NCBI RefSeq assembly: GCF_003177035.1
Contig: NZ_CP029488.1
Span: 1,612,001-1,676,000, forward strand
Length of the DNA: 64,000 nt
Direction: 5' to 3'
Origin: Salinisphaera sp. LB1
Lineage (GTDB): Bacteria > Pseudomonadota > Gammaproteobacteria > Nevskiales > Salinisphaeraceae
Numbering within the stretch: position 1 is the stretch's first letter; each line of letters starts with the position of its first letter. Shown in pieces: positions 28,056 to 29,839 of this stretch. Both the position numbers and the translations under genes were made by a program. A model generated the notes under the pieces. The model searched no databases. It was not told the DNA's origin and was given only the letters and a program-made list of their open reading frames with translations.

Positions 28056-28805
28056 ATGGCCGGCCAGCTGGTACTCCTGCGCCACGGACAGAGTCAGTGG
28101 AATCTGGAAAATCGCTTCACCGGATGGGTCGATGTCGACCTGACCGAGACGGGGCGCGACGAGGCAAGGCGGGCGGGCAGGCTGCTGGCGGACGAAAACA
28201 TCCGCTTCGACATCGCCTTCACCTCCGTGCTGACCCGTGCGATCAAGACGCTGTGGATCGCCCTCAGCGAAATGGAACAGCCCTGGTTGGACGTCGAGCG
28301 CCACTGGCGGCTCAATGAGCGCCATTACGGCGGCCTGCAGGGTCTGGACAAGTCGGAGACGGCTGAAAAGCACGGCGACGATCAGGTGCACATCTGGCGT
28401 CGCAGCTACGACACGCCGCCGCCCGAAATGGACGCCGACGATCCGGGACACCCGCGCAACGACCCGCGCTATGCCAGGCTCGACGCCCGCGTGCTGCCGG
28501 GTACCGAATCCCTCAAGCTGACGCTTGAGCGCGTGCTGCCGTACTGGCATGACGCCATCGCGCCGCGCCTTAAGGCCGGCGACAACGTGCTGGTCGCCGC
28601 CCACGGCAACAGCCTGCGGGCGCTGGTGAAGTATCTCGACGGCATTGCCGACGATGAGATCACCGGCTTGAACATCCCCACCGGCATCCCGCTGCGCTAC
28701 CAGCTCGACGACGAGCTGAACGTCATCGAATCGGGCTATCTCGGCGATGCCGACGCGGCCGAGAAAGCCGCCAAGGCCGTGGCCGATCAGGCCAAGGGCA
28801 AGTAG
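28056..28805 (+). CDS. gpmA: 2,3-bisphosphoglycerate-dependent phosphoglycerate mutase
   Basis: Glycolytic enzyme of 249 aa interconverting 3- and 2-phosphoglycerate. The phosphohistidine motif [19 protein letters not shown] (H10) opens the protein; [31 protein letters not shown] and the second His in [17 protein letters not shown] complete the active site. Full length for the family. AAGGAGAGG stands 4 bases before the ATG. The gene ends at the border of the repeat-rich gap. Confidence 0.97.
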
Positions 28806-28823
28806 CCCTGGATCGTGTGACAG

Positions 28824-28952
28824 GACGTAAATCGTCCGCAAATGAACGCGAATTAACGCAAATAAACGACGGCTAGAACGCGCATCACTAGCCGTGCCAT
28901 TGCGGCCGGGATCATTGGCTTTGCCGTCTGTACTATTTGCGGACGGTGATTT
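28824..28952. repeat. Structured repeat, copy 1
   Basis: Outer arms CGTCCGCAAAT (left, 28833-28843) and ATTTGCGGACG (right, 28935-28945) are perfectly complementary. An inner hairpin has arms ACGGCTAG and CTAGCCGT around about 28869-28895. The first 100 bases are close to 87% identical to copy 2 at 29114. Position pairs differ in a compensating way between copies. Confidence 0.75.
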
Positions 28953-28962
28953 CCGGCGGTCG

Positions 28963-28992
28963 GTCGGATTAGCGCGCAGCGCGCAATCCGAC
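28963..28992. repeat. REP-like hairpin 1
   Basis: Arms GTCGGATTAGCGCGC and GCGCGCAATCCGAC meet around a single A; one unpaired base in the stem. Core GTCGGATT/AATCCGAC is shared with the hairpin at 29022. Confidence 0.6.
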
Positions 28993-29021
28993 GTTCAGTC
29001 CGCAGGTTCTGAGGCTCGGCT

Positions 29022-29052
29022 GTCGGATTACGGTGCAAGCACCTAATTCGAC
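29022..29052. repeat. REP-like hairpin 2
   Basis: GTCGGATTACGGTG and CACCTAATTCGAC form an imperfect stem. It shares the GTCGGATTA start with the hairpin at 28963. Confidence 0.55.
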
Positions 29053-29113
29053 TTACGTAACTTTGGCCGATTAGGTCAAGGGAAGGGGAAAGTAGCCACA
29101 GGCTGCACGGAAA

Positions 29114-29272
29114 GACGTAAATCGTCCGCCAATGAACGCGAATGGACGCAAATAAATGGCGGCTAGAGCGCGGATCAATAGCCGCGTCATTGCGGCCGGG
29201 ATCACTGGTTTTTTGTGTATTATTTGCGTTCGCCGCTTGTTGCGGCGATTGCGTGCATTGGCGGACGGTTTT
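29114..29272. repeat. Structured repeat, copy 2
   Basis: Outer arms CGTCCGCCAATG (29123-29134) and CATTGGCGGACG (29256-29267) pair perfectly. A second nested pair ACGCAAATAA / TTATTTGCGT, an inner hairpin GCGGCTA/TAGCCGC and an extra hairpin CGCCGC/GCGGCG (29231-29247) are present. It is a direct repeat of the unit at 28824, longer by about 30 bases on the right side. Confidence 0.75.
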
Positions 29273-29302
29273 CCAGGCTAAGGTGCCAGCGCCGAGTCGC
29301 GC

Positions 29303-29839
29303 TCAGGTCTCGCGCCGGCCCGAGCGCAGTCGATCGGCGGCATCATCCAGCAAGCCCTGTGCGATCAGCCAGGCTCGCGCGTCCTCGGCGTCGTCGGCAA
29401 ACCAGGCGGCCGCGCTGCCGAGCCGGAAGGTATAGCCCCAGGCGTCCATGTCGGCGCACATCGTGGCCCGGTCGATGCCGTCGATACGGTCGCAGATCAT
29501 GATCTGCCAGTAGCACACGGCGTTTTCTTCGTCGTAGTCGCCGCCGGCATCGGTATCCAGTACGGCCCGACGTGCCGGGTCCATGCAGACGTAGTGGCCG
29601 GCCTCGTGCAACGCCGAATGCAGCGGGGTGTCGGGACGCACCAGCAGCGTATCGCCCTGTAATCCGGCCTCGACCTCGCCCCAGAAGCTGCCCGGGATTG
29701 GAGCGTCGAGCGAGATCTCGGTGACGCTGAGCTGAAAATCGGCCAACAGCTGGCGCAGCGTGGCGGTCCCGATCGCGTCGACACGGGTGATGTGGGCGGT
29801 CGGCGCCGGGCTTTCGCGTACAGTCTCGGGATTGTTCAC
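29303..29839 (-). CDS. Conserved hypothetical protein with HEAGH motif
   Basis: Protein of 178 aa without signal peptide or membrane helix. Residues 78-83 read HEAGHY, the short zinc-binding motif of gluzincin-type metallopeptidases, preceded by TPLHSAL. A candidate third ligand lies in DYDEENAVCYWQIM. The rest is acidic and Ala-rich. It may be a small metallopeptidase-like protein; activity is not proven. The start is a GTG at 29839, 14 bases from the start of the divergent lipoprotein gene, so the two promoters must overlap the other gene. Confidence 0.72.
   Translation of the reverse strand: MNNPETVRESPAPTAHITRVDAIGTATLRQLLADFQLSVTEISLDAPIPGSFWGEVEAGLQGDTLLVRPDTPLHSALHEAGHYVCMDPARRAVLDTDAGGDYDEENAVCYWQIMICDRIDGIDRATMCADMDAWGYTFRLGSAAAWFADDAEDARAWLIAQGLLDDAADRLRSGRRET

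Follow-up and report, generated by a model that had tools for sequence, protein, structure and literature searches.

The window analysed here, 64,000 nucleotides (nt) of the Salinisphaera sp. LB1 genome (contig NZ_CP029488.1, positions 1,612,001 to 1,676,000), carries at 28824 to 29272 two similar units, copy 1 and copy 2, built on short inward-facing repeats (arms). They lie between a histidine phosphatase superfamily gene and a convergent open reading frame. The arms belong to a dispersed family, some members of which enclose a gene for a GxxExxY protein. We put the probability at roughly 0.6 that the window copies are tandem-duplicated non-coding members of this inverted-arm element, which would have spread as a nuclease-gene element. 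The genome itself, a single contig of 4,141,708 bases, is termed G000 below, and other G numbers denote the genomes compared with it. The features of the locus are as follows.

28833 to 28865, plus strand: left arm of copy 1, (C)GTCCGCAAATGAACGCGAATTAACGCAAATAA, a GTCCGC edge followed by 10-nt units
28869 to 28895: inner hairpin of copy 1, ACGGCTAG...CTAGCCGT, 8/8 paired
28935 to 28945, minus strand: right arm of copy 1, shortened, the fit limited to ATTTGCGGACG
29123 to 29155, plus strand: left arm of copy 2, (C)GTCCGCCAATGAACGCGAATGGACGCAAATAA
29159 to 29185: inner hairpin of copy 2, 7/8 paired, in the same columns as copy 1
29222 to 29250: counterpart in copy 2 of the copy 1 right arm, plus an extra stretch; ATTTGCG at 29222-29228
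29232 to 29246: small hairpin in the stretch of copy 2 that copy 1 lacks, GCCGCTTGTTGCGGC
29251 to 29267, minus strand: outer right arm of copy 2, GCGTGCATTGGCGGACG
28780 to 29212: tandem duplication with a 290-nt period, the first unit beginning within the phosphatase coding sequence
28056 to 28805, plus strand: gene upstream of the units, a member of the histidine phosphatase superfamily (His_Phos_1) that we take to be gpmA
29303 to 29839, minus strand: downstream convergent open reading frame of 178 amino acids (aa), without a Pfam match

Layout and origin of the window copies

An earlier sequence-only reading described two look-alike structured units at these positions, and the letters are as it gave them: 28824-28922 and 29114-29212 share 88% identity across 99 nt. 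The similarity extends into the 3′-terminal part of the phosphatase gene (repeats D2 and D3), and among shifts of 270 to 299 nt a shift of 290 is the best, with 127 matches over 200 positions from 28760 (runner-up 63). Because the similarity starts within the phosphatase coding sequence, the copies are one tandem duplication and thus not independent of each other.

That reading also proposed two independent compensating changes. As paired there, copy 1 has an outer helix of 11/11 and an inner helix of 8/8, and the outer helix of copy 2 is indeed 12/12; the partner segment of copy 2 is, however, non-homologous and lies behind an indel. The alignment places 29222-29232 opposite 28935-28945 of copy 1, and this segment pairs 8/11 with the copy 2 left arm. 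The 12/12 partner, 29256-29267, sits 34 nt beyond that aligned counterpart, past the stretch that copy 1 lacks. The outer-arm ‘compensation’ consists of one changed letter in the left arm plus an indel on the right side. In the inner helix a two-sided A-T to G-C change is present, but the adjoining pair is lost (G.A). The changes do not stand as evidence that an RNA fold is conserved. Matched changes in both palindrome arms of a single tandem pair are weak evidence for RNA structure.

For the window copies alone, such changes could have arisen without selection if, once the tandem duplication had occurred, template switching corrected an imperfect palindrome. Template switching is a mechanism by which palindromes are corrected, and the tandem copies do differ by a single letter on the left and by a right-hand indel that yields a longer palindrome. 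There are, on the other side, two copies only, from which the direction of change is undeterminable. We regard this account as tentative, somewhat short of an even chance.

Both copies fold better as RNA than dinucleotide shuffles (z -3.2 for 28829-28950 and z -6.6 for 29119-29268), as is expected from any inverted arm pair. Over the window, Rfam gave nothing at gathering score and no tRNA or tmRNA was found. A distant DNA search of a plasmid collection with 28820-29280 gave no match. We note that between the copies (28963-29052) there is a further repeat, GTCGGATTAGCGCGCAGCGCGCAATCCGAC ... GTCGGATTACGGTGCAAGCACCTAATTCGAC, with a very similar stretch within an element near G000:C1:354500.

A dispersed family of iterated arms

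Used as a query of its own genome, 28820-28960 gave 35 matches, all of which, apart from the window copies, were 28-47 nt long and lay within the left arm. The arm consensus is about 30 nt, GTCCGC N RAT NN RCGC N RAT NN RCGC. With up to 3 mismatches the pattern CGTCCGCNAATNNACGCNAATNNACGC occurs 34 times forward and 31 times in reverse in G000 (65 arm matches), and the pattern read backwards gave none in either direction; further copies thus exist. Logos were drawn from 198 and 145 arms of two flavours (xAAT and xGAT) from the own genome and relatives, with overlapping loci partly double-counted. They have a sharp GTCCGC outer edge followed by RAT-NN-RCGC units every 10 nt that fade inward, with little conservation outside the arms or deeper in and no conserved interior. 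The window copies have the same GTCCGC edge and iterated inward arms, the right arm of copy 1 being truncated. Neighbouring arms 30-500 nt apart face inward in 37 cases, outward in 11 and in the same direction in 20 in G000 (127 arms); the corresponding counts in G013 (99 arms) are 22, 6 and 47. By eye, G013 (L130-L149) has an outer xAAT pair around an inner xGAT pair, often linked by a GAATACAG[AG]C stretch.

A second arm pattern is present in 13 of 41 genomes, 11 of these being among the 14 of the genus. The own genome has 93 matches to it, G003 has 104, G013 138, G006 41 and G002 23, and the remaining nine genus genomes have 0-13. In a phylum sample of 299 genomes the arm pattern was met in two, the own genome and another with a single match; the reversed control gave one match in one genome. 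The exact 30-nt arm form was found in at least 120 stretches, the taxa among the matches listed including Thiodiazotropha, Thiodictyon, Nevskia, Solimonas, Chromatiales and Rhodanobacteraceae. The phosphatase gene of the window locus is present in 13 genus genomes. The own genome has two copies there; among 12 relatives, inspected by eye over 560 nt, G002 has a degenerate copy and the remaining 11 lack one.

The idea that all interiors are unrelated was rejected, since 58 of 94 interiors of at least 40 nt match another interior at E 1e-5. The shared interiors are mostly nested pairs on the same DNA, tandem-array neighbours and arm-like matches of about 20-50 nt; they also include two related G000 arrays, one G013 array, the GxxExxY gene and a MITE-like family (MITE, miniature inverted-repeat transposable element). 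The tandem element arrays of the own genome lie at 1024354-1025522 (L055), 1040217-1041375 (L070) and 1333498-1333943 (L057) and repeat every 377, 373 and about 210 nt; L055 and L070 are related. The MITE-like family, of about 160 nt with ends CTTGATTATGTAC...GTACATAATCAAG, encloses one GTCCGC arm (L037, L040, L042, L046, L048 and others in the own genome) and was seen by eye in most of 21 places inspected.

Covariation was measured on same-flavour arm pairs no more than 600 nt apart, taken from segments of the own genome and from loci L071-L109 and L130-L177. Of these 107 pairs 81 were kept, 26 being dropped for a gapped fit to the 26-column model or as duplicate arm pairs. The test covers the outer arms only, in nine variable columns, and partners were shuffled among pairs of the same genome and flavour; the inner hairpin was compared in the two window copies alone. 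Arms agree within pairs in 436 of 729 cells against a shuffled mean of 424.3 (standard deviation 9.5), a value that 240 of 2000 shuffles reach. Neither G000 (102/180 against 101.2) nor G003 (137/216 against 139.2) has an excess; G013 alone does (152/243 against 138.0; 20/2000 shuffles), and one of the nine columns has an overall excess (10/2000). As agreement within pairs is no better than between them, pairing is not what is kept, and the inference of a kept fold from the window changes, judged by the condition that the sequence-only reading itself set for its refutation, is not supported. Conservation lies in the sequence of the arm, with its 10-nt periodicity. Compensation is no general feature, and in G013 there may be a weak effect or sub-families.

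A fold maintained by selection, whether of a structured RNA or of single-stranded DNA, is in our view highly improbable. In its favour are the out-folding of shuffles by both copies, the one inner-hairpin A-T to G-C change and the arm-to-arm excess in the G013 pairs; it has to contend with the overall lack of within-pair agreement, an outer ‘compensation’ that is an indel, logos without a conserved interior and the lack of an Rfam match at gathering scores. Arm sequence kept on a 10-nt repeat, without pairing, would also suit sites for host regulators or nucleoid proteins, with function holding the pairs in place and the GxxExxY gene a hitch-hiker. The arms are, however, absent from 3 of the 14 genus genomes and from 297 of the 299 in the phylum sample, and at the window locus they are not conserved, so we consider such sites quite improbable. 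The sequence-only reading had also offered a mobile palindromic family, and here it is supported by the many copies, the widely differing numbers among relatives and the same-site presence and absence in related genomes.

GxxExxY genes between the arms

GxxExxY frames were first spotted by eye between arm pairs of other genomes. A search of 41 genomes with the TIGR04256 profile found 22 genes in 15 genomes, including two in G000 on which NCBIfam and Pfam (PF13366) agree. There is no TIGR04256 match in the window, and its copies are therefore classed not as full members but as relatives, lacking the gene, of an element that lies between carA and carB (G000:C1:3761227-3761680) and encodes a GxxExxY protein of 130 aa. 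In that element the gene (G000:C1:3761299-3761640) sits between arms at 3761227 (plus) and 3761680 (minus) of the window's own flavour; window-flavour arms likewise enclose a GxxExxY gene in G003 (C49) and G013 (C16), and the second G000 gene (1338263) has ATCCGCAGATTTCACAGATT arms. Both the PD-(D/E)XK fold and the D...ExK residues are present in the GxxExxY protein, whose domain is about 115 aa. Searches of PADLOC gave no match up to E 0.1, and those of PHROGs and, by sequence, the PDB a single match each (E 0.013 and E 0.1). The passages naming GxxExxY in open-licence PubMed Central (PMC) text do not concern repeats, and a search of the same text for the arm sequences gave nothing evidently related, judging by titles.

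The association was measured from both sides. From the gene side, we took the best inverted repeat between the 170 nt upstream and the 170 nt downstream, with 40 shuffles per gene. Inverted repeats beyond shuffles flank 45 of 57 GxxExxY genes against 1 of 33 controls. In the 41 genomes 19 of 20 genes pass (two of the 22 lie too close to contig ends), the pass of G007 being weak and not arm-like. The controls comprise Y1_Tnp genes with loci returned (1/20, a repeat of another sequence) and gpmA (0/13). In a wider set 26 of 37 pass: 22/29 from a phylum search (30 loci, one too short, all from one bacterial family, f38) and 4/8 from plasmid records of Spirochaetota, Bacteroidota, Fusobacteriota, Gemmatimonadota and Alphaproteobacteria. 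From the arm side, stop-to-stop frames of at least 100 aa between arms were scored with a profile from alignment A3. Contigs found by the arm alone (the at least 120 stretches matched by the 30-mer) hold 101 pairs, seven of which enclose such a frame; six of the seven are GxxExxY, five previously seen by eye and one new.

The arms of GxxExxY genes are of several types, GTCCGCAAATGAACGC, ATCCGCAGATTTCACAGATT, ACCACAGATTACACAGATT, TCACGCAAAGGCGCAAAG, ACCGCAGAGTACGCAGAG and ACCACGAAGCACACGAAG. By eye they have in common the unit CRCRRAK at 9-11 nt spacing, with the exception of G021 (CAGGATGATCAGGATG). Three arm classes, placed on a tree of 24 proteins, require 3 changes where shuffling gives a mean of 10.7, and none of 200 shuffles is as low, near-copies and shared descent adding to this match. 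Five genus genomes hold genes of two arm classes, and the genes group by protein, not host. The type of arm tracks the protein subfamily.

All 14 genomes of the genus could be read across the carA-carB junction. From the carA stop to the carB ATG there are 93-111 nt in eight genomes and 448-456 nt in the five with a GxxExxY element. The element starts at or in the carA stop, either as a TAG sharing the G of GTCCGC or as GTCCGCGAATGA (V-R-E-stop) or GTCCGCAAATAA (V-R-K-stop), and ends 8-14 nt ahead of carB; the ATG of the G000 gene lies within the left arm. No spacer of about 100 nt remains beside the element, which thus seems to replace the spacer and not to drop into it. In the remaining genome, G002, the gap is 400 nt and holds an intervening-sequence protein gene (PF05635), with one stop within its TIGR02436 match, between CGGGACTCGGG arms. 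Genes for such 23S rRNA intervening-sequence proteins lie between carA and carB in both G002 and, by eye, G035 (L381, L395). Inverted repeats beyond shuffles, of CGGGACTCGGG or TGAGGCGTGAGG type, flank four of the seven found in relatives. These may represent a second small-gene element sharing architecture and spot with the GxxExxY element. As in that element, the arms are iterated, inverted and in the same spacer (G002); the protein and arm sequence are unrelated to those of the GxxExxY element.

Nature and proposed spread of the element

Target-site duplication was not seen at nine lengths between 2 and 12 (96 of the 107 pairs; z -1.1 to 0.5), and inverted extension beyond the arms gave z 1.3 to 2.2. 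This bears on the idea that the element is a conventional MITE, mobilised by a transposase that has escaped notice, and that the GxxExxY gene is cargo. The terminal inverted repeats with their sharp outer edge and inward decay, the many copies in some relatives and zero in others, and certain interiors common to several loci would all fit a MITE, as would the excess of copies without a gene: bacterial MITEs have short terminal inverted repeats and mostly gene-less copies (PMC10969869). Against it stand the lack of target duplication and the fact that the recognised gene between arms is GxxExxY (6/7 long frames in arm-found contigs). No transposase relative was found, Y1_Tnp being the sole transposase family searched; it is present in 14/14 genus genomes regardless of arm count, and none of its eight G000 matches lies within 4 kb of a listed arm. 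We consider a MITE of this kind unlikely.

The same distribution of Y1_Tnp, unrelated to arm count and not adjoining arms in G000, led us to reject a link to RAYT transposases. These accompany REPINs, which are doublets of repetitive extragenic palindromic (REP) sequences that form hairpins (PMC3116915). The present family resembles them in having inverted short-repeat doublets around spacers, extragenic and many per genome (same source). The arm here is, however, an iterated 10-nt unit, its logos lack a GTAG edge, and the gene encodes a PD-(D/E)XK protein and not a Y1/HUH transposase. Each REP unit is itself a palindrome; here 119 single arms fold at -4.4 kcal/mol where their mononucleotide shuffles give -3.7 kcal/mol, and the consensus has no clear stem. 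CGTC-tagged REPs are said to be without a dedicated transposase, and TIRYTs illustrate that inverted repeats flanking a gene can belong to a repeat family (PMC3733652). Both window copies happen to begin CGTCC, but a leading C occurs in only 21 of 119 G000 arms and the protein is different. A further comparison is with free-standing homing endonuclease genes, which spread by copying during break repair. In both, a small nuclease gene occupies a spacer between essential genes with no target duplication; the present element differs in its repeat arms and many gene-less copies, and its homing is putative.

The reading we prefer, that the window copies are non-coding members of a GxxExxY inverted-arm element, would work as follows. 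The GxxExxY nuclease would read the arms as double-stranded sequence, perhaps on one helix face, as the 10-nt repeat of the arm units suggests, and would cut at arms or at empty spacers. The element would then spread through copying in break repair. Gene-less copies may arise through gene loss or through arms forming around other DNA, and may be moved in trans by nuclease made elsewhere before drifting. The window pair would be such a gene-less copy, tandemly duplicated afterwards, its matched changes due to drift and the indel, perhaps with template switching in the palindrome.

Several observations weigh against this. Movement of the element is, like cleavage or binding of arms by GxxExxY, our inference. 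In the wider set 11 of 37 genes miss the inverted-repeat test (4/8 plasmid, 7/29 phylum); by eye several of these have degenerate arms, and those of Persicobacter and Prevotella have none. The phylum loci, coming from one family, are not independent. In the own genome and relatives only two of the seven frames of at least 100 aa, among 107 pairs, are GxxExxY. G002 has 23 arm matches and no GxxExxY gene, so arms outlast, or need no, resident gene. The short carA-carB spacer is likely ancestral (8/14 short). The protein tree covers loci with readable arms and excludes the odd CAGGATG type, and arms and proteins could have been inherited together with no contact between them. Correlation with arm counts ignores kinship.

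A wider reading is more tentative than that of the window copies, and we hold it at rather less than even odds. Arms of the GTCCGCAAATGAACGC, ATCCGCAGATTTCACAGATT, ACCACAGAGGACACAGAGG, ACCACGAAGCACACGAAG and TCACGCAAAGGCGCAAAG types are common bacterial intergenic repeats. Together they may form one superfamily, in which CRCRRAK units are spaced 9-11 nt apart and a separate GxxExxY nuclease subfamily reads each type of arm. The whole would be a mobile element without a transposase, which would home into the spacers of co-transcribed genes, supply stop and start codons from its arms and shed many gene-less copies, the window pair among them. GxxExxY is a named family for which our searches returned no function, and the repeats had previously been without explanation. 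The link between them provides a likely DNA substrate for the protein and a likely source for the repeats.
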